The translations under genes and the position numbers were made by a program. Positions 8,331 to 62,700 of a stretch of 64,000 nt of DNA are shown here, one piece after another. Source of the stretch: Ailanthus altissimus (lineage: Eukaryota; Streptophyta; Magnoliopsida; Sapindales; Simaroubaceae); contig OX327693.1 in the NCBI GenBank assembly GCA_946807835.1, positions 11,797,501 through 11,861,500 of the forward strand. Reading direction: 5' to 3'. The notes beneath the pieces were generated by a model. The model was not told where the DNA came from, did not search any database, and saw only the letters and a list, made by a program, of their open reading frames with translations. The number at the start of each line of letters is the position of its first letter. The stretch's first letter is position 1.

Positions 8331-8364
8331 AATATTGGTAATTCCGTTGCCTGCCTTACTCAAT

Positions 8365-11520: not shown

Positions 11521-11536
11521 CCAGCTTGAGGGAGGA

Positions 11537-27310: not shown

Positions 27311-27329
27311 AAGTCCAATTACAGTATCG

Positions 27330-28247
27330 ATGAGAAGAAATATAAAACTAGATATAAATTTTCTATTATCCAGACCAGACTAAAAGTCCAAGTCTGTGTA
27401 TCCTCTAACATGTTACTTTCTCTATGATTCAAAATCTTATCCTCTATAACTCTCAGGTATATTAGATATGTTTCATGGTCATTCAATGGTCGTGACTTGG
27501 ATCAGTTTGATAATAGCTCGTAACACTGATAACCATCTAGATCCAAGTTTCATACATAACATGGCATACATGAAGTTACCTCTAACTGATGCATATGGTA
27601 TATTAGACATTCTAACCTTTTCATCTCCTTGTCTAGGATACTTTATCTTAGAAAGATGAATACCATGTTTAAAAGGTACATTAACTATCTCACAGTTAGT
27701 GAAGTTGTACTTTTTAACAACATAGTCTATGTACGAGGATTGAGATAGCCCTATTTGTCTCTATAAAAATTCATAACTAGTATATAGGAATCTCAAATCT
27801 TTCATGGATAAGTTCTTACTCAGATAACTCTTATCCAACTGACTTATAACATACCAATGTTATTTTTGACAAAAAAAAGTATGTCATCTATATAGAGAAT
27901 TAGAAAGAAAATTATACTCCTACTGTCCTTTCTAAACACACACATTTTTTCTTCGTTCTTAATAAAATTAGACTTTCTGATTTTTTTGTTCAAATGAAGA
28001 TTTTTGCTTCAAGAAAACTACTTAAATCTGTATAACCCCTTCAATTTGCATATCAGATTAGAAGTCAGACTGAGTGCAAAGCCTTCAGGCTATTCCAAGC
28101 ATATCGTTTAGTCGAGATATACATTTTGGAATGCAATCTTTTACATCCATCTACTAGACCTCAAAATCTTAATATGTTGTAATAGCCAACAAAATTTGAA
28201 TTGACTTTAGCATTGCTACTAATGAAATAGGTTTCCTCATAACCGAT
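27330..28247 (-). pseudogene. copia B, 3' part of RT
   Basis: Starting at 28247 the minus strand reads IGYEETYFISSNAKVNSNFVGYY, aligned to the standard copia RT phrase DYEETFSPVAMLKSIRILLA. It continues through EGFALSLTSNLICKLKGLYRFK and the catalytic block LYIDDILFFVKNNIGML (near 27890). A decayed MHQLEVTSCMPCYV..NLDLDG corresponds to the region before RNase H. Stops and frameshifts are frequent. The fragment is cut on the right by gypsy 1 and fades on the left into the low-complexity array. Its missing 5' half is the plus-strand piece ending at 49527. Confidence 0.85.
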
Positions 28248-29347
28248 TGACACGTCCAGAATATAGGAGTTTATTCTAAAGTGCAGGATTGTCGAAGTAA
28301 TAAATAACTCAGAGAGAACGGGGTCGATCCACAGAGAAGTAGAATTAAAATTACAAATTATAAACACTTTTAAGATAATTAATGCAGTATAAGATGTTTG
28401 CAAATATTAATTCAATTAACCAATTCAAATAAAAGTTAAGATTAAAGGGATCCACTCTTGGCATAAGAAGTAAGAATATATTTGACTCTTTTTATAACTC
28501 AATTGGAATCCTCACACAAAGGAAGTTCCAACCAGAAAATATAACAATTAAAATTCATTATCATTTATATATTGATTAGTATTTATTTCTTTCAATTATT
28601 ATACATAAAATCTTATAAATGGGTTTAAGTATTTATTATGCCAATCTTTATATTTGTCTAAAATAAATCAAGACTCTCACTTTACAAGAAATGGTATATA
28701 CACCAAATCGTGTAAATGGTTTCAAGAATTTATTATGCCAAATATAAAGTTTGTCAATAATAAATCAAGAATAACCACTTTAGAAGAAAATGTATTAATT
28801 CTACAAACAAAATAAATACATCACATATAAATTTGCATAACTTAAGAATGAAGCATTAAATTCATGAATAAGTGTTAAACATATCTTATTACCTTGCCAG
28901 GAGTTTCACTCTTTCACCTTTAGCTGTCAATCAAAACATCAGAGTTGTAGATAAGTCTCTTATCTTTCCAAATTCAGTTGTCTCATACGTATTAGATACG
29001 TATTACTATAGTTATGAGCCAAATACTGATGACTGTTCAAACTGGGTCTGTACTGCAGATCAATTCTGTTCTAGGCCATTTTCACCCTCTAAACACTCAA
29101 ATTACAAATTCTTTATGAAATAAAATATGATAGCCCATTGAATCAGCTCTTCACAAGATTAAGAATCACTCTAATTGAATTTTTAGGTAGAAAGTTATAC
29201 CCATTTTATCGAACCTACCACAAAACAGTTAAAAGATAATTAGGTACAATATTGTAAACATACTTAAGTTAAGAAAATTAAATACACTAGTAATACAAAA
29301 CAATGATGTAAAAATCTTATTAAATGAGTAATTGCAAGTGTTCATCA
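28248..29347 (-). repeat. 3' LTR of gypsy 1, 320-bp internal deletion
   Basis: It is 1100 bp against 1420 bp for the 5' LTR. The missing block corresponds to 38493-38812 of the other LTR. TAGC stands at both edges there (38493 and 38813) and once at the join near 28921-28924, so the loss used microhomology. The lost block includes the TATA-like TATATAAATAG. Confidence 0.9.
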
Positions 29348-31225
29348 CATCCTCCAACTAGCTTATTGCTAGTCCCTAGCAATTTGAGTACAGATAAAAT
29401 TTGAACACTACCTAAGTATTTCAAACAAAATATCAATTTAAGATCACAATCGCTATAAAGGTTATTTCAATCATAAGTTTCAAAATTGTGTGTGTGTGAA
29501 CTAAGCCAAAACTTTCTTACCACAAACCACAACATATATAACCATGAAATTTTTTTTTCATCCTTCAGCTAAACAACCGAATCATTCTTCATCCTAAATA
29601 ATGTCATTCCAAACAAAAATTAACCATTTCAATAGATCAATGAAAGTTCGTAAGCTGTTATCTCAAACCTCTCCACTCACTCACAAAAAATATGTGAGTT
29701 TAGAAATAATATGTATACTTAAACATGAAAATTCTCTTGGCTATATATATTGAATCATCCATCTTACCACAACATTTAGTATTGTTCTCAAGAAATCATT
29801 TCAAAAGTTATTCTTTAGTAACCTAGAAAGAAAAAGTGATTTAAACTAAACAATTTTGAAATCATACATCGATAGCAAAGCAAATTTATTTACGCAAGAG
29901 TTACTAAAAACTTAAGCAACAAACATAAAATAAATTAAAAATAAACCAATTAGAATGTATTTCAAAAGTTCAGTAATGTATTCTTTACTCTGCATTCTAG
30001 AACTAGAATGCGTCTCAAGAATGCATAAAAAAACCTTTGATTCACACCATTTATGAATTTATTTTTTACAGAACAAAGTGCTAACAATAATAAAATAAAA
30101 TAATTAACACTAACATTATATACTAACTATCCTCCCCCCAACCAGATTGAGACATTGTCCTCAATGTCAAAATATAGAAAGAGTAAAGTATAGAAGATAT
30201 CACCTAAAACATCTTTTATTGAAAATTAAAACTGCAACAAAATAAAACAAGTCACACAAAATGCTTAAAAATACATAGAAGTAGATAGGCTACAGACGAA
30301 GCGTCAAATCTATCTTGCGTTTTTTTTCATTGTTATCAGTATACTAATTTATTTGACTTATTGTTGGATCAGATAGAGGTGTAAAAGCTTGTAGTTCATC
30401 GAGTAACTGATCAACAGTTGAAGCAAAAATGAGGATCTGTCGTGCTGCAGATGAGACGAATTTTGTTTCTACCGTATAGTTAAAAAAAGATAACAACCCA
30501 TTATAAAAACTATCAACATTTAACAAACCAATGGGTTTTTTTTATGGATTTACAATTGTGCCCATGAGACAATTTGAAAAATTTCCTCCAATGTTCTGAA
30601 CCCTTCAGGTAGAGCTATAAAGGTATTAGTATTACGAAGCATAAAAGACATTCATTCATACATTGATGATACCTGTAACTCATCCCCAATTATTTTTCCT
30701 ACAATGTCTTTAAGAGTTAGAGCTTTCGGTATAATACCCAAAACTTGATTGCCTTTATTTTATACAGCGGTTGCCACACGTCCCATTAATCCAAGACTAC
30801 CTCCTCTATATACTAAATGAATATTTTGCTAAGCTAATACCTTACCAAGGGTTTCTACTGCTTCTACAATCTCACTAGTTTTTCCAGGGCTGGATCTATA
30901 AAAGACACAAATTTTTGTGAATTTACGAGTTAATGATCCTTCCATGATTACACTCACCCTCTCTCTTGAATGATTTTGAGTTTGTATAAAGATGCAGAAA
31001 CAATGCAATGTAGTTATAGAGCCAAAAAGTGTTGCAAAGTTAAGTCACATGGGCTGTTGACTTAAAATACAAAATTTTCAACAGCTTTTTACCAATTTTC
31101 AATTTGTTAGCTGGAAAAGTCACATGGATTGTCGGCTTAAATTGCAAAAATTTTAAAAAGGACTATAGGTGGTTGGTTATTGAAAAGATGTTTGAGTTTG
31201 AAATGAAACATTTAAAAATAACAGC
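29348..31225 (-). other. Gypsy 1 region between extra ORF and 3' LTR
   Basis: 29348-29555 is the sub-LTR segment also found in gypsy 2 (as arms near 56638-56850 and 58165-58377). 29556-30940 is unique to gypsy 1 within the window, and gypsy 2 has a different 370-bp piece in its place. A minus-strand open stretch at 30344-30526 has no recognisable motif. 30941-31225 matches 57227-57540. Confidence 0.6.
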
Positions 31226-31825
31226 TATAGTAAATATATACAAGTAGTTGTGATTGTGGCTCACATCTTCCTCTAGTTTTACGTCTAGTAATGGCTTAAA
31301 CGCCCTTTATGGGTCGGGGATAGGCTTTCCATCTAATTTTCTTATAAATTGGCAAACAGAGTCTTTTAAAGTCAGATTCCCGAGACTGTACCGCTCATAT
31401 TCTTTTAAGAATATGTCTCATAATTCACAAATTACAATATGCACATATCCACTAAGATGTGTCTCAAGAGTCAATAAGATATCATCTAAAAACTCCTTAC
31501 TCAGGCCATCCTTAATGAACCTAATTTTATCTTCGCGATTTACAGACATCATTCCTAAAGTAGGGTAATGTGTGTTGCAAGTCATGCGTGCACACTTGTA
31601 ACAAACGTTTAATCGTTTTGCTCTTTGTTTTTTTTTTTTTTTGCAAAAGAGCTTTTACCTAAGTCGGGCATGTAGGAAATTAATAAGTTTGAAAATTCAC
31701 CTACTAATCGAATTTTGGCTTCAATTAACCAACGTAAATCAACAAGTATATTCATAATCATTAATAACCTTAATCTTTCACATCTTGCTTGGTAAATTTT
31801 CTTCAAGGAATTTTGAGGCAATGAT
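31226..31825 (-). pseudogene. Unidentified Cys-containing reading frame after gypsy pol
   Basis: Right to left it reads MPQNSLKKIYQARCERLRLL, then DLRWLIEAKIRLVGEF. After a frame change comes a Cys motif CYKCARMTCNTHY (near 31595-31560). It continues MMSVNREDKIRFIKDGLSKE, LDDILLTLETHLSG and SLGNLTLKDSVCQFIRKLDG, ending near KPLLDVKLEEDVSH. The phrasing is protein-like and its right part recurs in gypsy 2 (57540-57798). It is no domain I can name. Athila-type elements often carry an env-like or additional ORF here; I do not claim that identity. Confidence 0.45.
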
Positions 31826-32011
31826 GGAAAATGTTTTTTTCAAATTTTTTAGAATGCCATCCATTTTTTTTTAGAAAAAGGGGAAGAATATCAGTAATTA
31901 TGAGAAATTGACAAAATCGAGTTGAAATATAACGGAGTACCGTTATCCGCCACCTAACCGGGGTGCAAAATAAAATACTAACAAAAATACATAATTAACC
32001 TGCAAGTAAAA

Positions 32012-32036
32012 ATATATATATATATATATATATATA
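32012..32036. repeat. (AT)n microsatellite
   Basis: Twenty-five bases of alternating AT just beyond the 3' end of gypsy 1 pol. Confidence 0.9.
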
Positions 32037-32084
32037 AAGTTAGAAGAAAAATAAATATATATAAATATGTAAAATAAAGATTAA

Positions 32085-35000
32085 TTGGTCCAGTAACAAG
32101 GGTCCAACAGGGACACAAATTCTTCATGAAAAGCTTGGTTTTCTAGAAACGGCTTGAGTCTTTGCCCATTTACCTTAAACACATTCTCATTTCTAAGATT
32201 TTCAATGTTATTTGTTCCATAACGGTACACATGTTTCACAATAAAATGTCCACTCCATCTTGATCTTAATTTTCCAAAGAATATGTGAATTCAAAAATTA
32301 TAAAGCAAAACCTTTTTACCAACATCAAATGTATTTCTTTGAATTTTTTATCATGAAAAGCTTTGATTTAGTTTTATGAATTTTTGAATTCTCATCATGA
32401 AAAGCTTCAAGTTTATTTATTTGTAATTTACGTATGTGTCTAGCAGAATCAAGATTTGCATTGAAAATTTTAATGACCCAGTAGGCTTTATGCTCAAGTT
32501 CCACAGGTAAATGACAAGGTTTTTCATAAACTATCCTATAAGGAGACATACCCAATGAAGTTTTAAAAGTAGTTCTATAAGCCCACAGTACATCATTTAG
32601 TCTTAAAGACCAATTTTTGCGATTTGAATTTACAGTTGTTTCTAAAATTTATTTTATCTCCCTATTTGCTAATTCAACTTGTCCACTTGTCTGAGGAAGA
32701 TAAGAGGTAGCAACTTTATAAGTAATACCATATTTTTTCATTAATGTTTCAAATGATCTATTACAAAAATGCTTACCCCCATCACTTATAATGGCTCGAG
32801 GGATTCTAAATCGACTTAAGATATTTTCTTTCAAAAATTTCATGACTGTTTTATGGTCATTATTTCGACATGGAATAGCCTCAATCCATTTTGAGATATA
32901 ATCTACTGCAACTAAGATATACGTAAATCCAAATGATAATGAAAATGGTCTCATAAAATCTATCCCCCAACAATAAAAGATTTCAATAACAAGAATGGAG
33001 TTCAAAAGTATCATGTTTCGTTTTGAAACTGATCCAAACTTTTAAAAATTTCATACGTTATACAAAATGCAAGTGTATCTTTAAATAAAGTGAGCCAATA
33101 AAATCTACACTGCAAGATTTTTGTAGCTATTTTTTTTTATGAGAAATGTCCCCCACATGCTTCAGAATGACAAAATTCAATAACTTTACTTACCTCATTG
33201 TCGGGTATGCATCTTCGAAATATTTGGTCACGACAATATTTGAAGAGATAAGGATCATCATAATAAAACTTTCTTACCTCAGTTAAAAAATTCTTTTTGA
33301 TTTGAGCGTTCCATTGAGGTGGCATTTTTCTTGTTACAAGAAAATTAATAATATTAGCATACCAAGGCATTGAATAGTAGAAAATAAAAAATTCATCGGG
33401 AAAAAAAACATTAATAGGTGTTATTTTTGTTGATGAATCTGGTGCAGGTCTTAATAAGTGATCTACAACAACATTCTCAAATCTCTTCATATTCTTGATA
33501 GTGATAATAAATTCTTGTAGCAATAGAATCCATCGAATCAGCCTTGGTTTTGCATCATATTTTGACATTAAGTATCTTACAACAGCATGGTTAGTAAATA
33601 CAACAGTTGAAGAACCAATTAAGTAAGAACGAAATTTGTCTAATGCAAATATTATAGCAAGTAGTTCTTTTTTAGTTGTTGTGTAATTCATTTATGCATT
33701 GTTTAAAATTCTACTTACGTAATAAATTACATAGGATTTACCTTCCTTTCTTTGTCCCAATATAGCACCAACATTGTAAGCACTAGCATCACACATGAGC
33801 TCAAAAGGTAAAGATCAGTCAGGAGATTGTATGATAAGAGCAAATGTTAAGAGGCCAATTAATTTTTCAAACGAATTTTGACACTCTTGAGTCCACTCAA
33901 AGGATACATCTTTTGCTAAGAGGTTAAAAAGAGGTTTAGATATAGCACTAAAGTTTTTTATGAACCTCTTATAGAATCCAACATGTCCTAAAAATGATTG
34001 GACTTCTCTGACTATTTTTGGTGGAGGCAAATGTGTAATGAGTTCAACTTTTGCCTTATCCACTTCAATTCTTTTAAAAGACACTACATGTCCCAAAACA
34101 ATTTTAGAAGTAACCATGTAATGACATTTTTTCCAATTCAATACAAGACTCTTTTCTTCACATCTTTTTAAGACCTTTTCTAAGTTTTCAAGACAATTAT
34201 CAAAAGAATTTTCAAATATAGTTAAATCATTCATGAAAACTTCTAAATAATGCTCAATCATGTCATTAAAAATGCTTAAAATACATCTCTAAAATGTTGC
34301 TAGGGCATCACAAAGTCGAAAGGGCATTCTTTTAAAAGCAAAAGTCCCAAAAGGGCATGTGAATATAGTCTTTTCTTGGTCCTCTAGTGCTATAAAAATT
34401 TGATAATAGCCAGAATAACTATCTAGAAAGCAATAGTAGGGATGTCCTGCTACTCTTTCTATAATTTGATCAAGGAATGGTAAAGAAAAATGATCTTTTT
34501 TAGTGGTTGAGTTCAACTTTCTATAATCTATGCACATCCTCCAATTAGATGAGACTCGAGTTAGTATTAACTCATATTTTTTATTTTCAATGACTGTGAT
34601 TTTAGATTATTTTGGTACTACCTGAGTATGACTTATCCACTTACTATCTGAGATAGGATAGATGATTCCTACTTCAAGTAATTTGAGAACTTCAGCTCTC
34701 ACTACCTTTTTCATATATGGATTTAATCTCCTCTGAGGTTGTTGGGAAATTTTGGCATTATCCTCTAAGTGTATTTTATGTGTGCAAATCCAAGGATTAA
34801 TACCATTTATGTCTTTTAAAGTCCACTCAATTGCATTTTTATGCATTTTTAATAATTCAATCAACTTGCCTTCTTGTTCGCTTATGAGCGTAGAAGAGAT
34901 TACCATCGGGTAAGTTTGTTTCTCTCCAAGCAATGTATATTTCAATCCTTCAGCAGAGGTTTTAACTCCAACTTTGAAATTTCGTTCTATTTATCCTTAT

Positions 35001-35640
35001 TTTGTTCCAATTCTTCAAACTTTAGTTTCCATCCTTTATTTTCAATCACTTGTGCATGATCAAGTAAAGAACATATGTCAGAGATTTTAGGATCTAATTG
35101 TATATTTGACTAAAATGAATTTATTAAATACATTTCTAAAGGATCGGCAGAACTCCCTTTTTGAATATGATCCTCCACAATTGTTTCAATCATGTCGCCT
35201 TCTTCACTTTCATCCTCCCCTTCATATGGTTGCTTACACATATTGAAAATATTGCATTTAAGTGCCATGTTTTCAAATGAAAGCTTCATTACTTCATTCC
35301 TGTAATTAATGAAAGCATTAGAAGTTGTTAAAAATGGACGACCTAAAATAACAGGTATCAGATTACATCCTTTAACAGGTTCTGTGTCCAAGACAATAAA
35401 ATCCATAGGATATATGAATTTATCAATTTGAACTAAAACATCTTCCACTGTCCCTCTTGATACTTTTATTGATCTATTGGCAAGTAAAAGGATTACAGAA
35501 GTTGATTTTAACTCACCGAGATTGAGCTGCTGATAAACTGAATACGACAGTAAATTCACACTAGCACCAAGATCAAGTAAAGCTTGTTCAATTTTATAAC
35601 TTCCAATAATACATGAAATTATAGGACAACCAGGGTCTTT
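32085..35640 (-). pseudogene. Gypsy 1 pol (protease, RT, RNase H, integrase)
   Basis: The protease site LLDLGASVNLL lies at about 35590-35548, ending with VILGRPFLTTSNAF. The RT core follows at 34537-34289 (MCIDYRKLN..., CFLDSYSGYYQ, FGTFAFKRMPF). Its catalytic box reads FMNDL near 34235, with Asn for the first catalytic Asp. RNase H/tether starts at TKKELLAIIFALDKF (33680). The integrase core has D in GIDFMRPF (32965), D in IISDGGKHF (32785) and E in SGQVELANREIK (32655). The integrase C-terminus is FFGKLRSRWSGHFIVKHVY...FKVNGQRLKPF (32280-32140). Several frameshifts and stops break it. Confidence 0.92.
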
Positions 35641-35989
35641 ATTTCAAAGCATTATTGTTCTGAAGAATGGCACTTACTTGTTCAGCTAAAAATGCTTTCT
35701 TTTTCACAATCAGTTTTCTTTTTACTTTGCATTAATCCTTCAAAAATTTTGCATAAGAGGGCACCTACTTAATAGTATCCAGTAAAGGAATATTAACTTT
35801 TACCTATTTGAAGATTTCAAAAATTTCAGGATTGTGATTCATCTTCTTAGTATTACGTAATGCATGAGGAAATAGGGGTGGGGGTTAGGGTTTGGTGTTT
35901 TCTTCATTAGGTGTAGGTTCAACACTTTCCTTACCCATAGTGATTGATTCATCACTCTCATGAGGTTCAGGAATGTCGTTTCAACAATT

Positions 35990-37495
35990 TTACCACTTCG
36001 GAGAGTGATAACTGCTTTAACTTGATCCATGCATTGGCTTCCTAAACTACATGCATTTGAGTTATGTTGTCATTTAAGATTTGGCTGTGGTTGAGAAGGA
36101 AATTTTCCTTTCTCATGAATGTTCAGTGCAGATGCAAATTTAGCAAAAGTATCTTTCAAATCAGCAAATGTTTGAGCATTTTGAGAATTAACAAACTCTT
36201 ATTTTTCAATGAATGTATGCAAAGTTTCTTCAAGTTTTTTTAGGAGGTGGGACATATGGTGTATAACCTTGATGATTTTGAAAATTTTGGTGTGGTTGGA
36301 AAGGTAGTTGTGAAGCCTGTGCTTGAGTGTCATTCCTCCAACTTAAATTCGGGTGATTCCGCCATCCAGGATTATAGTTTTATGAATATGGGTTATTGTT
36401 TGACCGTTTGAATATGTTTAGAACATTGGCTTATTCATGGAGACATTCTCTAAATGCAGAAAAAGTTAGGCAATCATTGGTAGAGTGATCATGAGTTTCA
36501 CAAAAGTGAAACATAATTTCTTGAACAGATTTTATTTGACCACTCTTTTTCATTTCTAAGGTTTTGACTTTTCTAGCAAGAGATGCTAATTTGGCTTGAA
36601 GGTCATGGTCTTCCCTAAGATGATAAATACCCCCACTAGATGTAGTGGTTTGATTTTCGCTAGGTGCCTCACAGGTACTAGCAGTGTTGTAATTTTAAGC
36701 ATTGTTTACTAGTAAGTCAAGATAGTTCATTGTCTCTTCTCGGTCTTTATCCTCAAATGTTCCATTACACATCATTTCCACCATTTGCCTAACTTAGGGT
36801 GTTAAGCCCTCATAGAAATTTGAGACTAGTCTCCATGTTTCAAAGCCATGACGGGGACAGGTATGAAATAATTCTTTATACCTTTCCCAACATTGGTAAA
36901 GGGTCTCTCCTGATTTTTAGGCAAAAGTGGTGATTTGTCTTTTGAAAGAATTTGTTCTATGGGAAGGAAAAAACCTTTTCAAGAATTATTGTTGCATCTC
37001 ATCCCCTAAAGAAATAGATCATGGCCTAAGGTTATGTAGCCATGTTTTAGCTTTATCTTTTAAAGAAAAAGGGAAAAGCTTAAGTCGAATTGTGTTCATA
37101 CTACAATTTTGATCATTATACGTGTTACACACTTCTTCAAATTCTTTTAGATGTAGATAAAGGTTCTTTACATTAAAGCTATGAAAAGTGGATAAAAGTT
37201 AGATAATGCCTAGCTTAAAATTAAAATGCGTTGTATCCGAAGGAAAAATTAATCAAGATGGTGCACCGGTTCTTGTAAGGTTCATATAGTCTCTAAGTGT
37301 CCTAAGTCAGTTATAGTCATTATGTTGGGACTGATTGTCCCTTGGGTCTATGAGTCTCTCAATTTAATTTTTGGTCTTGGTGTTAATTGGTGAAGAATGA
37401 AAAGATGAAGGAGAATCTAACAAATTATCAAAGAAAGTTTCGAAATTACCTTTCACCAAACGATAAGAATTAGGATCTCGAAACCAATCACTCAT
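35990..37495 (-). pseudogene. Gypsy 1 gag
   Basis: Starts MSDWFRDPNSYRLVKGNFE at 37495. The Athila-type capsid segment includes LHLKEFEEVCNTYNDQNCSM, IRLKLFPFSLKDKAKTWL and ITTFA*KSGETLYQCWERYKELFHTCPRHGFETW. The zinc knuckle near 36530 is FHFCETHDHSTNDC, having lost its first Cys. Several stops interrupt the frame, so no capsid can be made. Confidence 0.9.
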
Positions 37496-37820
37496 AAAAA
37501 GGAAAAAAATAAAATACAATAACAATAAATCATATAAATAAGAGAAAAAAATAAAATTTTAAACACAGGTAAATAAAATAGGCAAAACTAAAAGTAAAAT
37601 AAAGATAAATAATTAGAAGTTAGATTAGTAATATTAGATTATATAATAAAAAGTTAATAAATAAAGAGTAGGAAGCTCAGCCATCCATGAAAATAAAAGA
37701 CGAATAATAAATTAACTAAATCACGTTAGGTGGCTCAGCCTTCTATGAAAATAAAATAAAAAAACAAATAACAAAAGAAATAATGTTAATTTCACTTCCT
37801 TGGTAACGGTGCCAAAAACT

Positions 37821-39240
37821 TGACACGTCCAGAATATAGGAGTTTATTCTTAAGTGAAGGATTATCGAAGTAAAAAATAACCCAGTGAGAACGGGATCGA
37901 TCCACAGGGAAGTAGAATTAAAATTACAAATTATAAATACTTTTAAGACAATTAATGCAGTATAAGATGTTTGCAAATATTAATTCAATTAACCAATTCA
38001 AATAAAAGTTAAGGTTAGGGGTATCCACTCTTGACATAAGAAGTAAGAATATATTTAACTCTTTTTATAACTCAATTGGAATCCTCACATAAAGGAGGTT
38101 CCAACCGAAAAATATAATAATTAAAGTTCATCACCATTTATATATTGATTAGTATTTATTTCTTTCAATTATTATACACCAAATCTTATAAATGGGTTCA
38201 AGTATTTATTATGTCATTCTTTATATTTGTCTACAATAAATCAAGACTCTCACTTTACAAGAAAGGGTATATACACCAAATCTTGTAAATAATTTTAAGA
38301 ATTTATTGTGCCAAGTATAAAATTTATCAATAATAAATCAAGAATTACCACTTTAGAAGAAAGGTAATTAATTCTACAAACAAAATAAATACATCATATA
38401 TAAATTTGCATAACTTAATAATGAAGCATTAAATTCATGAATAAATATAAAGCATATCTTATTACCTTGCTAAGAGTTTCACCCTTTTACCTTAGCAAAA
38501 AAAAAAAATTATTTGAACATAATAAAACTAAAGAAAAAGAAAAGAAATGGAAGAAGAAATAACATGACTTAATAATAAACAAGAGAAATAATAATACAAA
38601 GGACAAATATTTTAAACTAAATTATAACTTTCTAATTATCTACTTTAGGTATAAACAAGCCACCTATTTATATAAAAATATGGATAAATCGAAACAAATT
38701 AGGAGGAAACCACTTGGATGATGAAAGTTAAGAATGGTGGTAAAATAATTTGCATTGATTATCACTAAAGCACCAACTTGATTATCCAATTTGGAATTAT
38801 TGTGATCCAAATTAGCTATCACTCAAAAAAATTAAAGTTGTAGATAAGTATCTTATTTTTTCAAATTGAGTTGTCTCATATGTATTAGATACATATTACT
38901 ATAGTTATGAGCCAAATGCTGATAACTGTTTAAACTGGGCCTGTACTGCAGATTAGTTCTTTTTTAGGCCATTTTCACCCTATAAACACTTATATTACAA
39001 ATACTTTGTGAAATACAATATATTAGCCCATTGCGTCAGCTCTTCACAAGATCATGAATCACTCTAATTAGATCTTTAGGTAGAAAGTTATGCCTATTTT
39101 ACCGAACCTACCATAAAACAGTTAAAAGATAATTAGGTACAATATTGTAAATATACTTAAGTTAAGAAAATTAAATACACTAGTAATACAAAACAATGAT
39201 GTAAAACTATTATTAAATGTGTAATTTTAAGTGTTCATCA
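37821..39240 (-). repeat. 5' LTR of gypsy 1
   Basis: 1420 bp with TGATGAAC...GTGTCA ends on the minus strand, followed by the primer site. It contains the TATA-like TATATAAATAG near 38677-38667. Confidence 0.95.
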
Positions 39241-41198: not shown

Positions 41199-41213
41199 GC
41201 TCTGATATCATTT

Positions 41214-47211: not shown

Positions 47212-47339
47212 ATGTTTTCGGCCTTCTATAAATAAATCCCTAAAAATAAAATTTATTTTATTTAGACCTTTCTAAGTTTTTGAAATTCTTATTTCAGCCA
47301 GCATATTTTCAGAACTTTGCATATAGGCTTTCAACAGAA

Positions 47340-47690: not shown

Positions 47691-47794
47691 GAATTCCACT
47701 TTGAGGCCAAACAACCCTCAATAAGAAGGTAAAATTATAGATTTTGTCCCACGAGGCCTAAAGACTCTGGCCTACAAAGCCAAAGATCTCAATC

Positions 47795-49527: not shown

Positions 49528-50952
49528 TGATGAACACTTGAAATTACATATTTAATAAGAGTTTTACATCATTCTTTTGTATTACTAGTTTATTTAATTT
49601 TCTTAAGTATGTTTACAATATTGTACCTAATTATCTTTTAATTATTTTGTAGTAGGTTGGGTACAATAGACATAACGTTCTACCTAAAGATTCAATTAGA
49701 GTGATTCTTGTTGTGTGAAGAGCTGACTCAATGAGATAACATATTGTATTTCAAAAAGCATTTGAAATATGAGTGTTTAGAGGGTGGAAATAGCCTAGAA
49801 TAGAACTGATCTGCAGTACAAGCCCAGTTTGAATAGTCATCAGTATTTGGCCCATAACTATAGCAATACGTATCTAATATGTATGAGACAACTCAATTTA
49901 ATTACATAAGAGACTTATCTATAACTTTGATGTTTTGAGTGATAGCTAATTCGAATCACATCAATTTTAAATTAGATAATCAAGTGGATGCCTTAGTGAT
50001 AATCAATGCAAATTATTTTGTCACCATTCTTGACTTTCATCATCCAAGTGGTTCCCTCCTAATTTGTCTCGATTTATCCATGTTTTTAAAAAAAATAAGT
50101 GGCTTGTTTATGCCTAAAGAATGTAATTAGAAAGTTAGAATTTAGTTCAAAACACTTGTCCTTTGTATTATCTCTTTGTAATATTATTTCTCTTGTTTAC
50201 TATTAAGTCATGTTATTTCTTCTTCCATTTCTTTTCTTTTTCTTTAGGTGTATTATATCCAAATAATTGTTTTTATGCTAAGGTGAAAGGGTAAAGCTCT
50301 TGGCAAGGTAATAAGATATGCTTAACACTTATTCATGAATTTAATGCTTCATTCTTAAGTTATACAAATTTATATATAATGTATTTATTTTGTTTGTAGA
50401 ATTAATACCATTTCTTCTAAAGTGGTGATTCTTGATTTATTATTGACAAACTTTATACTTGGCATAATAAATTCTTAAAATCATTTACAAGATTTGGTGT
50501 ATATACCCTTTCTTGTAATTTGGAAGTCTTGATTTATTGTAAACAAATATAAAGATTGGCATAATAAATACTCGAACCCATTTATATGATTTAGTGTATA
50601 ATAATTGAAAGAAATAAATACTAATCAATATATAAATAATTATGAACTTTAATTGTTATATTTTTCGGTTGGAACCTCCTTTGTGTGAGGATTCCATTTG
50701 AGTTATAAAAAGAGTTAAATATATTCTTACTTCTTATGCCAAGAGTGGATCCCCCTAACCTTTACTTTTATTTGAATTGGTTAATTGAATTAATATTTGC
50801 AAACATCTTATACTACTTTAATTGTCTTAAAAGTGTTCATAATTTGTAATTTTAATTCTACTTCCTTGTGAATCGACCTCGTTCTCACCGGGTTATTTAT
50901 TACTTCGACAATCCTGTACTTGGGAATAAGCTCCTATATTTTGTATGTATCA
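49528..50952 (+). repeat. 5' LTR of gypsy 2
   Basis: 1425 bp, TGATGAAC...GTATCA. It includes the 320-bp segment that the 3' LTR of gypsy 1 has lost. Confidence 0.95.
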
Positions 50953-51391
50953 AGTTTTTGGCATCGTTGCCGGAGAAGAGAAATTGGCATTATTTCTTTT
51001 ATTGTTTGTTTGTTTATTTTATTTTCATGGAAGGCTGAGCCTCCTAACATGCTTTATTTTATTTATTTTTTGTTTTTTATTTTCTTAGAAGGCTAAGTCT
51101 CCTACTCTTTATTTATTATTCACTTTTTTTTTATTTTCATGCAAGGTTGAGTCTTCTAACTTGCTTTACTTTATTTATTATTCTATTTTTATTTTCATGC
51201 AAAGCTGAGCCTCAAACTATTTATTTATTAACTTTTTATTATATAATCTAACATTACTAATCCAACTTATAATTATTTATCTTTATTTTACTTTTAGTTT
51301 TGTCTATTTTATTTACCTGTGTTTAATATTTTATTTTATTTTCTCTTATTTGTATTATTTAATGTTATTGTATTTTATTTTATTTCTTTTT

Positions 51392-53085
51392 ATGAACGGT
51401 TGGTTTCGAGATCCTAATTTTCATCGTTTAGTGAAAGGTAATTTCGAAACTTCTTTTGATAATTTGTTAGATTCTCCTTCATCTTCTCATTCTTCACCAA
51501 TTAACACCATGACCGAAAATTAAATTGAGGGACTCATAGACCCAGGGAAAAATCAGTCCCAACATTATGATCATAACTGACCTAGGACACTTAGAGACTA
51601 TATGAACCCTACACGAACCGGTGCACCATCTTGCTTAATTTTTCCTCCGGATGCAACGCATTTTAATTTTAAGCCAGGCATTATCCAACTTTTACCCACT
51701 TTTCATGGCTTAGATACAGAGAACCATTATCTACATCTAAGAGAATTTGAAAAAGTGTGTAACACGTATAATGACCAAAATTATAGCATGAACACAATTC
51801 GACTTAAGTTTTTTCCTTTTTCTTTAAAAGATAAAGCTAAAACAAAAACCTTAGGCCAATATCCATTTCTTTATGGGATGAGATGCAAGAACAATTCCTG
51901 AAAAAGTTTTTTCCTTCCCATAGAACAAATTCTTTCAAAAGACAAATCATTACTTTTGCCTAAAAACCAAGAAAGGCCTTTTATCAATGTTAGGAAAGGT
52001 ATAAAGAATTACTTCATACCTGTCCCTATCATGGCTTTGAAACATGGAGACTAGTCTCAAATTTTTATAAGGGCTTAGCACCCTAAGTTAGGCAAATGGT
52101 AGAAATGATGTGTAATGGAACATTTGAGAACAAAAACCAAGAAGAGGCAATGAACTATCTTGACTTACTAGCAGAAAATACTTAAAATTGGGACCCTGCT
52201 AGTACCTGTGAGGCACCTAGCAAAAATTAAACCACTATATCTAGTGGGGGTATTTATCATCTTCGGGAAAACCATAACCTTCAAGCAAAATTAGCATCCC
52301 TAGCTAGAAAAGGCGAAACCTTAGAAATGAAAAAGAGTGGTCAAATAAAATCTGTTCAAGAAATTGTGTGTCACATTTGTGAAACTCATGATCACTCTAC
52401 CAATGATTGCCCAACTTTTCCTACATTTAGGAAATGTCTCCATGAACAAGTCAATGTTCTAAACACGTTCAAGCGGTCAAACAATAACCCACATTCACAA
52501 AACTATAATTCTGAATGGTGAAATCACCCAAATTTTAGTTGGAGGAATGACACTCAAGCACAGGCTTCACAACCACCTTTTCAACTACACTAAAATTTCA
52601 AAATCATCAAGGTTATACGCCATATGTCCTACCTCTTAAAAGAAATCTTGAAGAAACTTGGCATACATTCATTGAAAAGCAAGAATCTGTTAATTCTCAA
52701 AATGCTCAAACATTTGCTGATTTGAAAGATACTTTTGCTAAATTTGCATATGTATTGAACATTCATGAGAAAGAAAAATTTCCTTCTCAACCACAGCCAA
52801 ATCCCAAAAGATAACATAACTCAAATGTATATAGTACAAGAAGCCAACACATGGATCAAGTTAAAGTAGTTATCACTCTTCAGAGTGGTACAATTGTTGA
52901 AAACAAAATTCTTGAACCTCTTGAGAGCGATGAATCAATCTCTAAAGGTAAGGAAAGTATTGAATCTACACCTAATGAAGAAACCTTGACCTTCACCTCC
53001 ACCCCTATTTCCTCATGCATTATGTAATACTAAGAAGATGAATCACAATCCTGAAGTTTTTAAAATCTTCAAATAGGTAAAAGTT
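51392..53085 (+). pseudogene. Gypsy 2 gag
   Basis: Begins MNGWFRDPNFHRLVKGNFE. A 99-codon open capsid stretch (51602-51901) carries LHLREFEKVCNTYNDQNYSM and IRLKFFPFSLKDKAK. The zinc knuckle CHICETHDHSTNDC at about 52369-52410 keeps the full C-x2-C-x4-H-x4-C pattern, unlike gypsy 1. Stops and frameshifts lie between the blocks. Confidence 0.9.
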
Positions 53086-53097
53086 AATATTCCTTTA

Positions 53098-55236
53098 TTG
53101 GATGCTATTAAACAAGTTCCGTCTTATGCAAAAATTTTGAAAGATTTATGCACAGTAAAACTAAAACTGAATGTGAAAAAGAAATTATTTTTATTTGAAC
53201 AAGTAAGTGCCATTCTTTATAACAATAATTCTTTGAAATATAAAAACCCTGGTTGTCCTACTATTTCATGTATTATTGGAAGTCATAAAATTGAATAAGC
53301 CTTACTTGATCTTAGTGCTAATGTGAATTTATTGCCGTATTTAGTTTATCAGCAGCTCAATCTCGGTGAGTTAAAATCAACTTCTGTAACTCTTTTATTT
53401 ACCGATAAATCAATAAAAATACCAAGAGGGACAGTGGAAGATGTTTTAGTTCAAGTTGATAAATTCATATATCTTGTAGATTTTATTGTCTTGGACACAG
53501 AACCTGTTAAAGGATGTAATCCGATACCTGTTATTTTAGGTCATCCATTTTTAGCAACTTCTAACGCTTTTATTAATTGCAGGAATGAAGTAATGAAGCT
53601 TTCATTTGAAAACATGACACTTAAATGCAATGTTTTCAACATGTGTAAGCAACCATATGAAGGAGAGGATGAAAGTGAAGAAGGCGACATGATTGAAACA
53701 ATTGTGGAGAATCATATTCAAAAAGGGAGTTTTGCTGATCCTTTAGAAATTTATTTAATAAATTCATTTGAGTCAAATATACAATTAGATCTTGAAATCT
53801 CTGACATATGTTCTTTACTTGACTATACACAGGTGATTGAAAATAAAAGATGGAAACTAAAGTTTGAAGAATTGGAACAAAATAAGGATAAACAGAACAA
53901 AATTTCAAAGTTGGAGTTAAAACCTCTGCTGAAGGACTGAAATATGCATTTCTTGGAGAGAAACAAACTTACTTGGTGGTAATCTCTTCTACACTCACAA
54001 GCGAACAAGAAGGTAAGTTGATTGAATTATTAAAAATGCATAAAAATACAATATGGTGGACTTTAAAAGACATAAACGGCATTAATCCTTTGATTTGCAC
54101 ACATAGAATACACCTAAAGGATAATGCCAAAACTTTCCAACAACCTCAAAGGAGATTAAATCCACATATGAAAGAAGTAGTGAGAGCTGAAGTTCTCAAA
54201 TTACTTGAAGTCAGAATTATCTATCCTATCTCAGATAGTAAGTTGGTAAGTCCTACTCAGGTAGCACCAAAAAATATGGAATCACAGTCATTAAAAATGA
54301 AAAAAGTGAGTTAATACCAACTCGAGTCTCATCTAGTTGGAGGATGTGCACAGATTATAGGAAGTTGAACTTGGCCACTAGAAAATACCATTTTCCTTTA
54401 CCATTCATTGATCAAATTATCGAAAGAGTAGCAGGACATTCCTACTTTTGCTTTCTAGATGGTTATTCTGGCTATTATCGAATTCCCAAAGCACTAGAGG
54501 ACCAAAAAAAGACTACATTCACATACCCTTTTGGAACCTTTACTTTTAGAAGAATGCCCTTTGGACTTTGTAATGTCCTAGCAACATTTCAAATATATAT
54601 GTTAAGCATTTTTAGTGACATGATTGAGCATTATTTAGAAGTTTTCATGGATGATTTAACTGTGTTTGAAAATTCTTTTGATGATTATCTTGAAAACTTA
54701 GAAAATGTCTTCAAAAGATGTGAAGAAAAGAACATTGTATTGAATTGGGAAAAATGTCATTACATGGTTACTTCTGGAATTGTTTTGGGATATGTAGTGT
54801 CTTCTAAAGGAATTGAAATAGATAAGGTAAAAGTTGAATATATTACACTTTTGCCTCTACCAAAAACAGTCAGAGAAGTCCTATCCTTTTTAGGACATGC
54901 TGGATTCTATAAGAGGTTCATAAAAAACTTTAGTGCTATATCTAAACCTCTTTATAACCTCTTAACAAAATATGTATCAATTGAGTGGACTCAAGAGTGT
55001 CAAAATTCGTTTGAGAAATTAATTGGCCTCTTAACATTTGCTCCTATCATACAATCTCCTGACTGGTCTTTACCTTTTGAGCTCATATGTGATGCTAATG
55101 ACTATGCTGTTGGTGCTGTATTGGGACAAAGAAATGAAGGTAAATCTTATGTAATTTATTACGCAAGTCGAACTTTAAATAGTGCACAAATGAATTACAC
55201 AACAACTAAAAAAGAACTACTTGCTGTAATATTTTC
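53098..55236 (+). pseudogene. Gypsy 2 partial pol (protease, RT)
   Basis: The protease active site has decayed to LLDLSANVNLL (about 53305). A 205-codon open stretch (53323-53940) covers the rest of the protease. A 304-codon open stretch (54344-55258) covers the RT: MCTDYRKLNLATRKYHFPLP, CFLDGYSGYYRIPKA, FRRMPFGLCN, then the catalytic FMDDL at about 54643-54657. It runs to ICDANDYAVGAVLGQ and TKKELLAVIF. This RT is better preserved than that of gypsy 1 (FMNDL there). The frame runs straight into the inverted LTR at 55237. Confidence 0.9.
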
Positions 55237-57798
55237 AAGTGCAGGATTGTCGAAGTAATAAATAACCCAATGAGAATGGGGTCGATCCACAAGGAAGTAG
55301 AATTAAAATTATAAATTTTAAACACTTTTAAGATAACTAATGCAGTATAAGATGATTGCAAATATTAATTCCATTAACCAATTCAATTAAAAGCTACAGT
55401 TAAAGGGATCCATTTTTGGCATAAGAAGTAAGAATATATTTAACTCTTTTTATAACTCAATTGGAATCCTCACACAAAAGAGGTTTCAACCGAAAAAAAT
55501 AATAATTAAGGTTCATCATCATTTATATATTGATTAGTACTTATTTCTTTCAATTATTATACATCAAATCTTATAAATGGGTTCAAGTATTTTTTATGCT
55601 AATCTTTATATTTGTCTACAATAAATCAAGACTCCCACTTTATTAGAAATGGTATATACACCAAATCTTGTAAATGGTTTCATGAATTTATTGTGCCAAG
55701 TATAAATTTTGTCAATAATAAATCAAGAATCACCACTTTAGAAGAAAGGGTATTAATTCTACAAATAAAATAAATACATCATATATAAATTTGTATAACT
55801 TAAGAATAAAGCATTAAATTCATGAACAAGTGTTAAACATATCTTATTACCTTGCTAAGAATTTTTCCCTTTTACCTTAGCAAAAAAAAAAATTATTTGG
55901 ACACAATAAAACTAAAGAAAAAGAAAAGAAATGGAAGAAGAAATAACATGGCTTAGTAATAAACAAGAGAAATAATATTACAAAGAGATAATACAAAGGA
56001 CAAGTATTTTGAACTAAATTATAAGTTTGTAATTACATGCTTTAGGCATAAATAAGCTACCTATTTATAAAAAAAAACATAGATAAATCGAGACAAATTA
56101 GGAGGGAACCACTTGGATGATGAAAGTCAAGAATGGTGGTAAAATAATTTGCATTGATTATCACTAAGGCATCCACTTGATTATCCAATTTAAATTGATG
56201 TGATTAGAATTAGCTGTCACTCAAAACATACAATTTGTATATAAGTCTCTTATCTTTCCAAATTAAGTTGTCTCGTATATATTAGATACGTATTGCTATA
56301 GTTATGGGCCAAATACTTATGTCTGTTCAAACTGAGCTTGTACTACAGATCACTTCTGTTCTAGGCCATTTTCACCCTCTAAACACTCAAATTTCAAATA
56401 CTTTATGAAATACAATATGTTATCCCATTAAGTCAACTCTTTACAAGATTAAGAATCACTCCAATTGAATCTTTAGGTAGAAAGTTATGCCTATTTTACC
56501 GAACCTACCACAAAATAGTTAAAAGATAATTATGTACAATATTGTAAACATACTTAAGTTAAGAAAATTAAATACACTAGTAATACAAAACAATGACGTA
56601 AAAAACTTATTAAATATGTAATTTTAGGTGTTCATCGCACCCCCTAACTAGCTTATTGCTAGTCCTTAGCAATTCGAGCATAAATAAAATTTGAACACTA
56701 CTTAAGTATTTCAAACAAAACGTCAGTTCAAGATCACAGTCGCTATAAAGGTTATTTCAATCATAGCTTCTACAATTTTGTGTGTGTCTGAATTAAGCCA
56801 AAGCCTTCTTACCACAAACTACAACATATATAGCCGTGAAATTTTTTTCTAAGTAAAAGCCTCAACTCCATATCCTCAAAGGTGAATAACTTATTTAATG
56901 GCTTAGGATTTCACTCATACAGTTGGAAACAGATAATCACTTAAGAAAAAGTTACATTTAGGAATAGACAGACAAACTAACATTAATCCAAAGATAGAAA
57001 AATCAAATATTTAGAGTCAAACCATTATTGTCACATGCTAGCTTCAAGACTCTAATTATTTTATGCAAATCTTACGAATAGAGAGTCCGGTGATAAGATT
57101 ATTTCTTAATGACTTTAATCTTCTAAAATTAAATGAAGACTTTATTGAATTGAATTGACTTCTTTTCTCTCTTTTTTTTTTAATTTAAAGACATAAGGAA
57201 TCATTACAAAATAAGAGCAATTTATCCCCCTTCTATGATTACACTCACCCTCTCTCTTGAATAATTTTGAGTTTGTATAAAGATGCAGAAATAATGCAAT
57301 GTATTTATAGAGACAAAAGGTGTTGTAAAGTTAAGTCACATGGGCTGTTGGCTTAAAATACAAAATTTTCAATACCTTTTTACTAATTTTCAATTTGTTA
57401 GCTAGAAAAGTCACATGGGTTGTCGGCTTAAAATGCAAAATTTTCAAAAAGGACTATAAGTGATTGGTTATTGAAAAGTCGTTTGAGTTTGAAATGAAAT
57501 ATTTAAAAATAATAGCTATAGTAAATATATACAAGTAGTTGTGATTGTGGCTCACATCTTCCTCTGGTTTTACCTCCAGTAACGGCTTAAACGCTCTCTA
57601 TGGGTCGGGAATAGGCTTCTCATCTAATTTTTTTTATAAATTGGCAAACAGGGTCTTTTAAAGTCAGATTCCCAAGACTGTACCGCTCATATTTTTTTAG
57701 GAATATATCCTATAATTTACAAGTTGCAATATGCACATATCCACTAAGACATGTCTCAAGAGTCGATAAGATATCATCTAAAGACTACATACTCAGCT
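55237..57798 (-). mobile_element. Reverse-oriented gypsy 3' end inside gypsy 2
   Basis: 55237-56637 is a gypsy LTR in minus orientation lacking its terminal ~30 bases. 56638-57226 is the segment that normally precedes the 3' LTR. 57227-57798 matches gypsy 1 at 30941-31530, including the end of the unidentified reading frame. 55237-57226 forms an inverted repeat with 57799-59766. Confidence 0.85.
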
Positions 57799-58377
57799 GA
57801 TAAATTGCTCTTATTTTGTAATGATTCTTTATGTCTTTCAAAAAAACAAAAAAAAAGTTAGTTCAGTTCAATAAGTCTTCATTCAATTTTAGAAGACTAA
57901 AGTCATTAGGAAACAATCTTATCACTGGACTCTCTATTCGTAAGATTCGCATAAAATAATTAAAGTCTTGAAGCTAGCATGTGACAATAATGGTTTGACT
58001 CTAAATATTTAATATTTTTATCTTTGGATCAATGTTCGTTTGTCTGTCTGTCCCTAAATGTAACTTTTTCTTGAGCGATTATCTGTTTCGAACTCCATGA
58101 GTGAAATCCTAAGCCATCAAATAAGTTATTCATCATTGAGGATTTGGAGTTGAGGCTTTGACTTGGAAAAATTTTTTACGGCTATATATGTTGTGGTTTG
58201 TGGTAAGAATGCTTTGGCTTAATTCACACACACACATAAAATTTTGGAAGTTATGATTGAAATAACCTTTATAGCGATTGATCTTGAACTGATGTTTTGT
58301 TTGAAATACTTAGGTAGTGTTAAAATTTTATTTATGCGCGAATTGCTAGGGACTAGCAATAAGCTAGTTGGGAGGTG

Positions 58378-59797
58378 TGATGAACACTTAAAATTACACA
58401 TTTAATAAGAGTTTTACATCATTATTTTGTATTACTAGTGTATTTAATTTTCTTAACTTAAGCATGTTTACAATATTGTACCTAATTATCTTTTAACTGT
58501 TTTGTGGTAGATTCGGTAAAATGGGTATAACTTTCTACCTAAAGATCCAATTAGAGTTATTCTTAATCCTATAAAGAGCTGACTCAATGGGCTAACATAT
58601 TATATTTCACAAAGTATTTGAAATTTGAGTGTTTAAATGGTGAAAATGGCCTAGAAAAAAATTGATCTGTAGTACAGGACCAGTTTGAACAGTCATCAGT
58701 ATTTGGCCTATAACTATAGCAATACGTATGAGACAACTTAATTTAATTACATAAGAGACTTATCTATAACTTTGATGTTTTGAGTGATAGCTAATTTGAA
58801 TCACATCAATTTTAAATTAGATAATCAAGTGGATGCCTTAGTGATAATCAATGCAAATTATTTTGCCACCATTCTTGACTTTCATCATCCAAGTGGTTCC
58901 CTCCTAATTTGTCTCGATTTATCCATGTTTTTCTTATAAATAGGTGGCTTGTTTATGCCTAAAGAATGTAATTAGAAAGTTAGAATTTAGTTCAAAACAC
59001 TTATCCTTTGTATTATCTCTTTGTAATATTATTTCTCTTGTTTACTATTAAGTCATGTTATTTCTTCTTCCATTTCTTTTCTTTTTCTTTAGGTGTATTA
59101 TATCCAAATAATTGTTTTTATGCTAAGGTGAAAGGGTAAAGCTCTTGGCAAGGTAATAAGATATGCTTAACACTTATTCATAAATTTAATGCTTCATTCT
59201 TAAGTTATACAAATTTATATATAATGTATTTATTTTGTTTGTAGAATTAATATCATTTCTTCTAAAGTGGTGATTCTTGATTTATTATTGACAAACTTTA
59301 TACTTGGCACAATAAATTCTTAAAACCATTTACAAGATTTGGTGTATATACCCTTTCTTGTAATTTGGAAGTCTTGATTTATTGTAAACAAATATAAAGA
59401 TTGGCATAATAAATACTCGAACCCATTTATATGATTTGGTATATAATAATTGAAAGAAATAAATACTAACTAATATATAAATGATGATGAACTTTAATTG
59501 TAATATTGTTTTGTTAGAACCTCCTTTGTGTGAGGATTCCAATTGAGTTATAAAAAGAGTTAAATATATTTTTACTTCTTATGCCAAGAGTGGATCCCCC
59601 TAACCTTAACTTTTATTTGAATTGATTTATTGAATTAATATTTGCCAACATCTTATACTGCGTTAATTGTCTTAAAAGTGTTTATAATTTGTAATTTTAA
59701 TTCTACTCCCCTGTAGATCGATCCCGTTCTCACCGGATTATTTATTACTTCGACAATCCTATACTTAGGAATAAACTCCTATATTCTGAATGTGTCA
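58378..59797 (+). repeat. 3' LTR of gypsy 2
   Basis: 1420 bp, TGATGAAC...GTGTCA, preceded by the polypurine tract. The adjacent 57799-58377 is the sub-LTR region. Confidence 0.95.
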
Positions 59798-62700
59798 ATG
59801 GGCACTGAAAATGCAATTGCCTAAAAAACATTGCCATTGTGAAGAAGACTCCCTCAAGTATTATCTTTTCCATTATTGACATTTCTTTAGCATTTGATGC
59901 TAGTATTTGCTGGGTATTAGATACCGTAAGTCCTTCTCACATCTGCAATATGTTGTAGGGTCTGAAGGAAGTTAAATTGCTACAGTCGGGAGAGGTACAG
60001 CTTCGAGTAGGAAATGGTGATCTCCTACGGGTCGAGGCTTTAGGACATTATGATTTGATTCTTCCTTATAATAAAACTGTTGTACTTCTTAATTGTTATT
60101 TTGTGCCTGCTATGATCAGACAAATTATCTCTTTTTTTGTACTTGACAGTGAAGGGTATCATATGTATATTAAGAACCACGCTTTATATTTATTTAATAT
60201 GTTTGATATTTTATTAGCTGAGTGTCAATTAATTAATGAGCATTATATTTTGGATAAACGAGAAATATTATGAATGTAAATGGTAACACTAGTAATAGTG
60301 CACAAGCTTTAAATGATATTGAATTATAGCACATGAGATTAGGTCATATAGGTGTGAGATGCTTAACCCATCTGGTTAAGGATGGTCGGATATCTAATCT
60401 GTCCATAGAACCTTACCCAGTTTGTGAATATTTTATTTAAGGGAAAATAACTAAATCTCCATTCACTAGTGTTAGACATCGTGCCATTGATTTATTGAAA
60501 CTAATATATAGTGATGTATGTAGTCCAATGAATCGCGCTACAATGGGTGGATTTCAATACTTTGTTACCTTTATCAATGATTTGTCACAATACAGGTATG
60601 TGTTTCTTATGAAACACAAGTCAAAAACCTTTGAAAAGTTTAAAGAATTCAGACTTGAAGTAGAGAAACAAACCGGTATATATGTCAAATGCCTTCGATT
60701 AGATCGAGGCGGTGAGTACATGACAATGAATTTTTTGATAATTTAAAGGAGAATGGGATTCTAGTTTAGTATAGTCCTCTAGGTACTTCGTAACACAATG
60801 GTGTATCGGAGAGAAGGAATCGGACATTATTGGATATAGTCTGATCGATGATGAGCTTCACCAACCTACCTGAATATCTTTAGGGTTATACTCTGAAAAC
60901 TGTTGCTCATATATTGAATAGAGTTCCATCTAAAACTATTTCAACCACTCCATATGAGATGTTGAATGGAAAGAAACCAAGTCTTAAATACTTTAAGATT
61001 CGGGGCTTTCCTACTTACGTAAAAGTTACGCAACATGATAAATTTGCACCCAAGGGGTACAAGTATCGATTGATTTGGAATCCCAAGAATTCAATAGGAT
61101 ACCAATTCTATGATCTCGAGGAGCGAATGTGTTTATTTCTCGATATGCCACTTTTCTTGAGAAAAATTTTCTCATGGATCATAGAGGTTGTAGAAAGATT
61201 ATGCTTGATGAAGCCAATCAAAGCGAACATGAACCCGAGATGGAAGCTCAAAATCAATTGAGCGGAATACCTTTAACACACCCTCCACGTAAGTCTGAAA
61301 GGATATCCAGGCCACGTACTAGGTATGGTCAGATGCCTGAAGGTGCACTTGGAGTTATTTTAGTGGAAGAAAATAATCATTTAACCTATAAGGATGCGAT
61401 GTTAGACATCAACTCGAAAAAGTGGCAAGAAGATATGAAATTCAAAATTGACTCAATTCATCGTAATCAAGTCTGAGACTTGGTTGAGCTTCTTGAAATA
61501 ACAGTTTCTATCGGTTGTAAATAGATTTACAAGCAAAAGCGTGGGCCCGATGAAAATGTAGAGACCTTCAAAGCCCGACTAGTTGCAAAAGGTTATTCTC
61601 AACGATCTAGGATCGATTATGAGGAAACTTTTGCACTAGTAGCGACGCTAAAGTCAATACGAATTTTATTGGCTATTGCTGCATATTATGACTATAAGAT
61701 ATGGAAGATAGATGTAAAGACGGCATTTCTGAATGGATATCTCGATGAAGAGATATACATAAAACAGCTTGAAGGTTTTGCATCCAGCCAATCCATAGGG
61801 CTAGTGTGCAAACTGAAGAAGTCTATTTATAGGCTTAAGTAGGCTTCTCGGAGTTGCAACCTTTGTTTTGATAAGGTAATCAAAAGATCTGGTTTCATCA
61901 CAAATAATTATGAACTATGTGTGTATAAAAAAGTCAGTGGGAGCATGGTTGTCTTCTTAATTCTCTACGTGGATGACATGCTGATCATTGGGAATGATAT
62001 TGGTATGTTACAATCTGTCAAGAATTATCTAAACAAAAACTTCTCCATTAAAGACTTGAGAGAGGCTTCTTATATGCTGGGTATAAAGCTTTATAAAGAT
62101 ATAGCTAGGAAGCTGATAAAACTCTCTTAATCATCATACATCAATAGTGTCATTGAAAGGTACAATTTTACTAATTGTAAGACAACTAATGTACCTTTCA
62201 GACATGACATTCATCTTTCGGGAAGAATGTCTCCTGACACAGAAGATGAAAGAGTTAGAATGTCTAAGATGCCATATGTATCAGCTGTAGGTAGCCTGAT
62301 GTATATTATGATGTGCACGAGACCTGACATCAGCATAGCTGTAAGTGTTACTAGCCGGTATCAATCTGATTCAGGTGATAGCCATTGGATTGCAGTCAAA
62401 CATGTCCTCAAATACCTTAAGGGTACAAAGGACAAGTTTCTCATTTATGGAGAAAATGATTTGCAAGTTAGAGAATATACAGATTCAGACTTCTAGTCTG
62501 ATCCAGATGATAGAAAGTCTACATCTGGATGTGTATTTATCCTCAACGGTGTTGCAGTGAGTTGGAAGAGCACCAAACAAGGATCTACAGCTAATTCAAC
62601 AACAGAAACGGAATATATTACAGCCTTTTAGGCAACAAAAAAAATAGTATAGATATGCAAGTTTGTCGCTGAGCTCGAGATTATTCAAAGTTCAATGGAT

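Follow-up and report, generated by a model that had tools for sequence, protein, structure and literature searches.

What sort of event leaves two retrotransposons that each run from one terminal repeat to the other, each bordered by half of its neighbor's target-site duplication? The question is raised by a 64,000-nucleotide stretch of the Ailanthus altissimus genome (hereafter the window; positions 11797501-11861500 of contig 11, OX327693.1, in the 939-Mb, 37-contig assembly GCA_946807835.1), in which two Ty3/gypsy elements of one family, gypsy 1 (28248-39240, minus strand) and gypsy 2 (49528-59797, plus strand), interrupt copia-type elements. Coordinates are those of the window, and the 30 kb to its right that we also covered (stretch L009) are given in window-equivalent coordinates. 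A preliminary description of this DNA had proposed that the segment between the two opposed gypsies was inverted through them. The inversion event itself is supported by both exchanged duplications, by two rejoined copia reading frames and by two outside markers (copia A and copia C), and we put the probability of the explanation that we prefer, one inversion produced when two gypsy copies in inverted orientation crossed over, at roughly 0.88.

Exchanged flanks and interrupted host elements

The left flank of gypsy 1 reads CCGAT (28243-28247) and its right flank CCCAT (39241-39245), and the corresponding flanks of gypsy 2 read ATCGG (49523-49527) and ATGGG (59798-59802). In neither element do the two flanks match each other; instead, the left flanks of the two elements are exact reverse complements, as are the right flanks (5/5 positions in both cases), and we read the left flanks as the two halves of one duplication, X, and the right flanks as the two halves of a second, Y. 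These flanks, the strands and the element ends agree letter for letter with the preliminary description, as do the absence of an own matching pair and the crosswise pairing. When four 5-mers were drawn at random from the window, only one of 200,000 draws gave two reverse-complementary pairs. Unmatched flanks are also not usual for the family copies that we checked, because all four controls (the nearly complete elements among 20 fetched stretches) have matching flanks, two of them perfect and two with 4/5 positions, as read by eye.

The sequences that the gypsies interrupt carry the same signal at a larger scale. Copia B runs on the plus strand from pol into the reverse transcriptase (RT) region at 47913-49527, within the inverted segment, and the remainder of its RT lies outside that segment on the minus strand (27328-28247). 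Copia A has its first half within the segment (39241-43523, minus strand), comprising the 5' long terminal repeat (LTR; 41218-43523) and gag as far as the zinc knuckle, and its second half from 59798 to the end of the window at 64000 on the plus strand, comprising the remaining gag, pol and a 3' LTR that starts at 62967 and continues to window-equivalent 66558. Projected on copia A coordinates, copia B occupies A 59992-61623 with 47913-49534 (plus) and A 61633-62322 with 28225-27548 (minus), and at the DNA level the ends of these halves fall at A 61615 and A 61612, an overlap of about the length of the duplication. When the middle is flipped, the restored copia B join (60+60 bases) aligns to uninterrupted copia A with 71/120 identical positions and no gap at the join, an indel some way past the join lowering the count, and the restored copia A join (60+58 bases) aligns to uninterrupted copia C with 67/118 identical positions, likewise gapless at the join. 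The frames rejoin in register and read QRFEIGYEET in copia B and CFHCSEDGH*KCNC in copia A, where the zinc knuckle CX2CX4HX4C spans the join 39241/59798, with the His and the last Cys supplied from 59798 onward and a TGA stop between them. Thus the earlier claims that copia B RT breaks off at 49527 and restarts on the opposite strand at 28247, that copia A gag is cut within its knuckle, and that flipping the middle restores both elements hold for the short joined flanks, with the addition of that one stop codon. Copia A has a PF07727 match (8.2e-30) and a PF14223 match under the cut-off; copia B and copia C were assigned to Ty1/copia by similarity to copia A alone, the three being related families with about 70-77% DNA identity.

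Two further markers extend beyond the window. The LTRs of copia A lie in inverted orientation, one inside the inverted segment (41218-43523) and one outside it (62967-66558), and their identity to each other is 88.0 and 90.5% (in two parts), compared with about 71% when the LTR of copia C is the partner; their divergence K is 0.108 over 2294 sites (0.120 over the first 1034). The element into which copia A inserted, copia C, is represented in the window by its first part (LTR, gag and start of pol; 43524-47071, minus strand), which stops at 43525, equivalent to A 60042, and restarts to the right of the window on the plus strand at 66567, equivalent to A 60043. Its frame after rejoining reads EAVGHFDL against EALGHYDL (by hand). 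The flanks of copia A itself, TGTGT and TGTGG, match at 4/5 positions (also by hand), and its 3' LTR ends at 66558 in TA rather than CA, the boundary having been placed by hand. Because the copia A LTRs are inverted and the copia C parts lie on opposite strands, both elements span the inversion, as they must under the model. Neither copia B gag nor the copia C 3' LTR was recognized within the 30 kb to the right of the window. As a separate observation, the copia A 3' LTR is split by a 1.27-kb insert (window-equivalent 64107-65380 in L009) that the 5' LTR does not contain.

A proposed route from two insertions to one inversion

It is textbook knowledge that inversions arise by ectopic exchange between LTR retrotransposons, and the present arrangement would have come about as follows. 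Two copies of the same gypsy family would have inserted independently, in opposite orientation and some 10 kb apart, copy X into the RT region of copia B with the duplication ATCGG and copy Y into the zinc knuckle of copia A with the duplication ATGGG. A later crossover between X and Y on the same chromatid would invert the DNA between the exchange points, and the inversion would swap one flank of each gypsy for one of the other. We infer homologous crossing over as the agent and separate insertion of X and Y, and we place the exchange points inside the gypsies because this is the simplest process by which the duplications are exchanged while each end keeps an element running from LTR to LTR. 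The ages fit a nesting of the gypsies in copia A, with K of 0.108 for the host LTRs and about 0.10 for the gypsy LTRs, a small difference; if 1.3e-8 substitutions accumulate per site and year, the latter would correspond to an age of about 4 million years. Annotation of the intervening 10 kb, as far as it goes, shows broken transposable elements, so the effect of the inversion on the plant was probably small.

Both gypsies retain TG...CA ends, and they share 88% identity across 5.7 kb in inverted orientation. In gypsy 1, a 5' LTR (37820-39240) and a 3' LTR from whose middle about 318 bp are missing (28248-29348) enclose, on the minus strand, matches to PF13650, PF00078, PF17917 and PF00665, in the order protease, RT, RNase H and integrase; the PF00078 match scores 26.6 bits, under the cut-off of 29.6. 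Gypsy 2, with LTRs at 49528-50953 (5') and 58378-59797 (3'), matches only PF00078 (RT) and PF17919/PF17917 (RNase H), and the open reading frame (ORF) in its protease region matched no Pfam family. Its integrase part is missing, some 2.7 kb having been lost from the end of RNase H onward. In that place sits an inverted piece of a third copy, gypsy 3 (55230-57798, minus strand), made up of an LTR and a 3' internal part. The LTR of this piece is without its terminal 25 bp, so the piece is not a plain integrase insertion, and our guess is that it is filler from the repair of a break.

Two inverted repeats of 10-11 kb from a single family are a classic trap for an assembler, and flipping the segment would make the flanks normal. 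Could the chromosome then be uninverted in truth, the assembler having switched from one gypsy copy to the other? The copies diverge by about 10%, no stretch shared exactly between their aligned parts exceeds 62 bp, and the window contains no N and lies inside a 30.6-Mb contig. Of 6341 candidates for the copia B flank, the 40 that were scored include no near-identical second copy, the best other match having 79% identity. On these features of the assembled sequence, misassembly is unlikely.

Whether the gypsy copies are chimeric

If crossing over took place inside the gypsies, both present copies would be chimeric, as the preliminary description had stated, and an alignment with other family members might reveal where each switches from X to Y. 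We compared the LTRs of gypsy 1, gypsy 2 and gypsy 3 with those of 16 other family copies (17-19 LTRs per site; 16 of the 20 fetched loci, with L016, L017, L021 and L025 excluded because their matches were broken), and we compared gypsy 1 and gypsy 2 with four other copies in their internal sequences (15 pairs). The LTRs form a star in which pairs are 6.5-12% apart (6.2% for the gypsy 2 own pair), and every pair of internal sequences is 8-10% apart. X and Y stem from the same burst and are too similar in origin, and the comparison revealed no single switch point.

The two LTRs of gypsy 2 are a special case. Over a tract of about 740 alignment columns at their center, both carry the same private changes: 13 of its 28 shared minor alleles are absent from all other LTRs compared, and the pair differs by 2-3% in the middle half vs. 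about 8-12% at both ends, a clustering of differences reached in 0/5000 shuffles. The pattern is most easily read as gene conversion within gypsy 2, from one LTR to the other, after insertion. We had considered taking the similarity of these LTRs as proof of a single uncrossed insertion, and rejected this, the similarity being confined to the center and the ends having diverged like those of unrelated copies. The age of LTR pairs was also tried as a test of pairing. The four LTRs of gypsy 1 and gypsy 2 are about 0.10 apart (K 0.096-0.109), apart from the gypsy 2 own pair, whose K is low (0.065) because of its converted tract. In the four control copies with matching flanks, own-pair K (0.088, 0.070, 0.087 and 0.056) overlaps between-element K (0.069-0.104; 24 pairs), and pairing is therefore unreadable from LTR age.

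Tests for a crossover within the copies gave no significant switch. Inside the tract, the tree pairing the LTRs of gypsy 2 with each other is clearly best; outside it, the three possible pairings lie within 3 log units and none is rejected, although the pairing that an internal crossover would produce ranks last (approximately unbiased test, p 0.13). We also typed 50 sites diagnostic of subfamilies, using as reference a young subfamily of 20 copies over 1 kb and a single young copy for the sequence flanking that kilobase; the region above 37000 was misaligned in one diagnostic-site alignment and was excluded there. Both gypsies are of the old type at 34 of these sites and of the young type at one, three sites are of other kinds, and the remaining 12 separate the gypsies (young type only in gypsy 2 at eight, only in gypsy 1 at four). 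The best one-switch pattern accounts for 10 of the 12, a fit reached in 541/2000 shuffles; no single reciprocal switch emerges, and a candidate crossover at 35491-34989, based on four reciprocal-looking sites, disappeared when all 50 sites were used. Nor is a stretch of low divergence between gypsy 1 and gypsy 2 (24/458 differences, about 35403-34946) unusual, given that 89/500 shuffles equal it. Of the 15 pairs, gypsy 1 and gypsy 2 have the largest number of exclusive minor alleles in common (17, with 14 in the next pair), which may reflect some contact between them, although these alleles form no significant tract. Chimerism is thus neither shown nor excluded: this part of the preliminary description is unproven, with LTR data that lean slightly and non-significantly against it. 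Separately, the young subfamily (L037-L056), whose 20 copies are 0-1.8% apart over 1 kb and lie on many contigs, implies that this gypsy family amplified recently as well as long ago. A scan of viral contigs yielded no relative.

The null chimera tests agree with another way of making the inversion, in which two gypsy cDNAs integrated at once, each with one end joined at the copia B site and the other at the site in copia A; the inversion would then be the work of integrase itself. Such crosswise integration predicts both exchanged 5-bp duplications and non-chimeric elements, and a comparable hybrid insertion is named as a rival in the available part of the paper on the Drosophila transposon Galileo (PMC2775673). 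It nevertheless requires two simultaneous mixed-end reactions with normal 5-bp staggers, whereas the aberrant integrations of human immunodeficiency virus described in the portion of PMC5041404 that we consulted join one end, apparently via host enzymes, and leave duplications or deletions of larger size and, more rarely, inversions. We regard crosswise integration as very improbable; if true, it would mean that the integration machinery of a retrotransposon made an inversion without any homologous crossover. That there was no inversion, and that chance flanks were combined with separate deletion and duplication of copia elements whose pieces could be confused at about 70-77% identity, is scarcely credible given two perfect flank pairs, copia frames that meet gaplessly, and two further markers in copia A and copia C.

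Crossing over between the two gypsies thus remains our preferred explanation, and it has precedents in part. Inversion 2z3 of Drosophila buzzatii, made by Galileo, likewise has two opposed copies of one element at its breakpoints with duplications exchanged as reverse complements; there, according to the same portion of the source, non-inverted chromosomes were compared and both copies were reported to be chimeric (PMC2775673). The present case differs in that it involves plant LTR retrotransposons with 5-bp duplications, is read from the inverted arrangement alone, and has no demonstrated chimerism. In maize centromere 10, complete chimeric CR retrotransposons with mismatched duplications occur with inversions nearby, and the mismatches are similarly read as products of recombination; the excerpt available, however, does not match up these flanks as the two ends of a single inversion, and the authors favor double-strand-break repair, many cases showing microhomology (PMC4806543). 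Within the wording and collection that we searched, literature on exchanged or swapped duplications concerned Drosophila cases only. No plant LTR inversion with both exchanged duplications laid out was met in the literature searched, as far as its accessible text extends, and the accessible portions of PMC2776974, PMC545598, PMC2773423 and PMC6298018 describe no inversion with exchanged flanks. The locus appears to be the record of an inversion that is known in mechanism and unusually complete in its markers. Because the nested host elements cut by the flip serve as extra markers, it could serve, given sequences of relatives, as a clean fossil for telling crossover from crosswise integration.

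A LOG-like reading frame and neighboring sequence

In gypsy 1, a LOG-like ORF without introns (minus strand, about 30344-31044; PF03641) follows pol and precedes the 3' LTR; it is broken there, and it is absent from gypsy 2 and from the gypsy 3 piece. It is present in 6 of the 20 other fetched 10-kb stretches, one of which keeps 193 open codons; this ORF falls under the cut-off of the NCBIfam enzyme model NF058542, at 78 of 300 bits. The LOG-like ORF was noted in L032 (3038-3616) and L059, and by hand count 131 of the best 150 genome matches (from 5935 candidates), which were not each placed in a gypsy, are without an internal stop. The ORF of one young copy retains PGGFGTLEE, which we take to be the LOG signature. 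A comparison of old copies with that young copy gave no indication of selection (8 fixed differences, 3 of them synonymous; p 0.40). Judged by these sequence matches, the gypsy family carries a putative captured ORF for a LOG-like, cytokinin-activating enzyme. Citrus is a member of the Sapindales. LOG (YgdH)-type domains are reported in Citrus LTR retrotransposons, in the part of PMC9289625 available to us (citing Steinbauerova 2011), and the elements here resemble them, at the level of the domain, in carrying a LOG-family domain in LTR retrotransposons of a Sapindales plant. Since such Citrus elements are in print, a LOG-bearing gypsy is of a kind already known.

Three other features of the window were noted. 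Directly left of copia B, at 24500-27300, lies a very A+T-rich degenerate array of short repeats (17-24% G+C in 2-kb steps) with spacings that are mostly multiples of 6. Farther left is copia D, a distant copia-like element (6653-11721, plus strand) with LTR-like repeats of about 186 bp that are 86% identical. Near the left end of the window, an ORF of 421 amino acids (3234-4496, minus strand) resembles heat stress transcription factor A-5, its best named match being from Pistacia vera at 77%.

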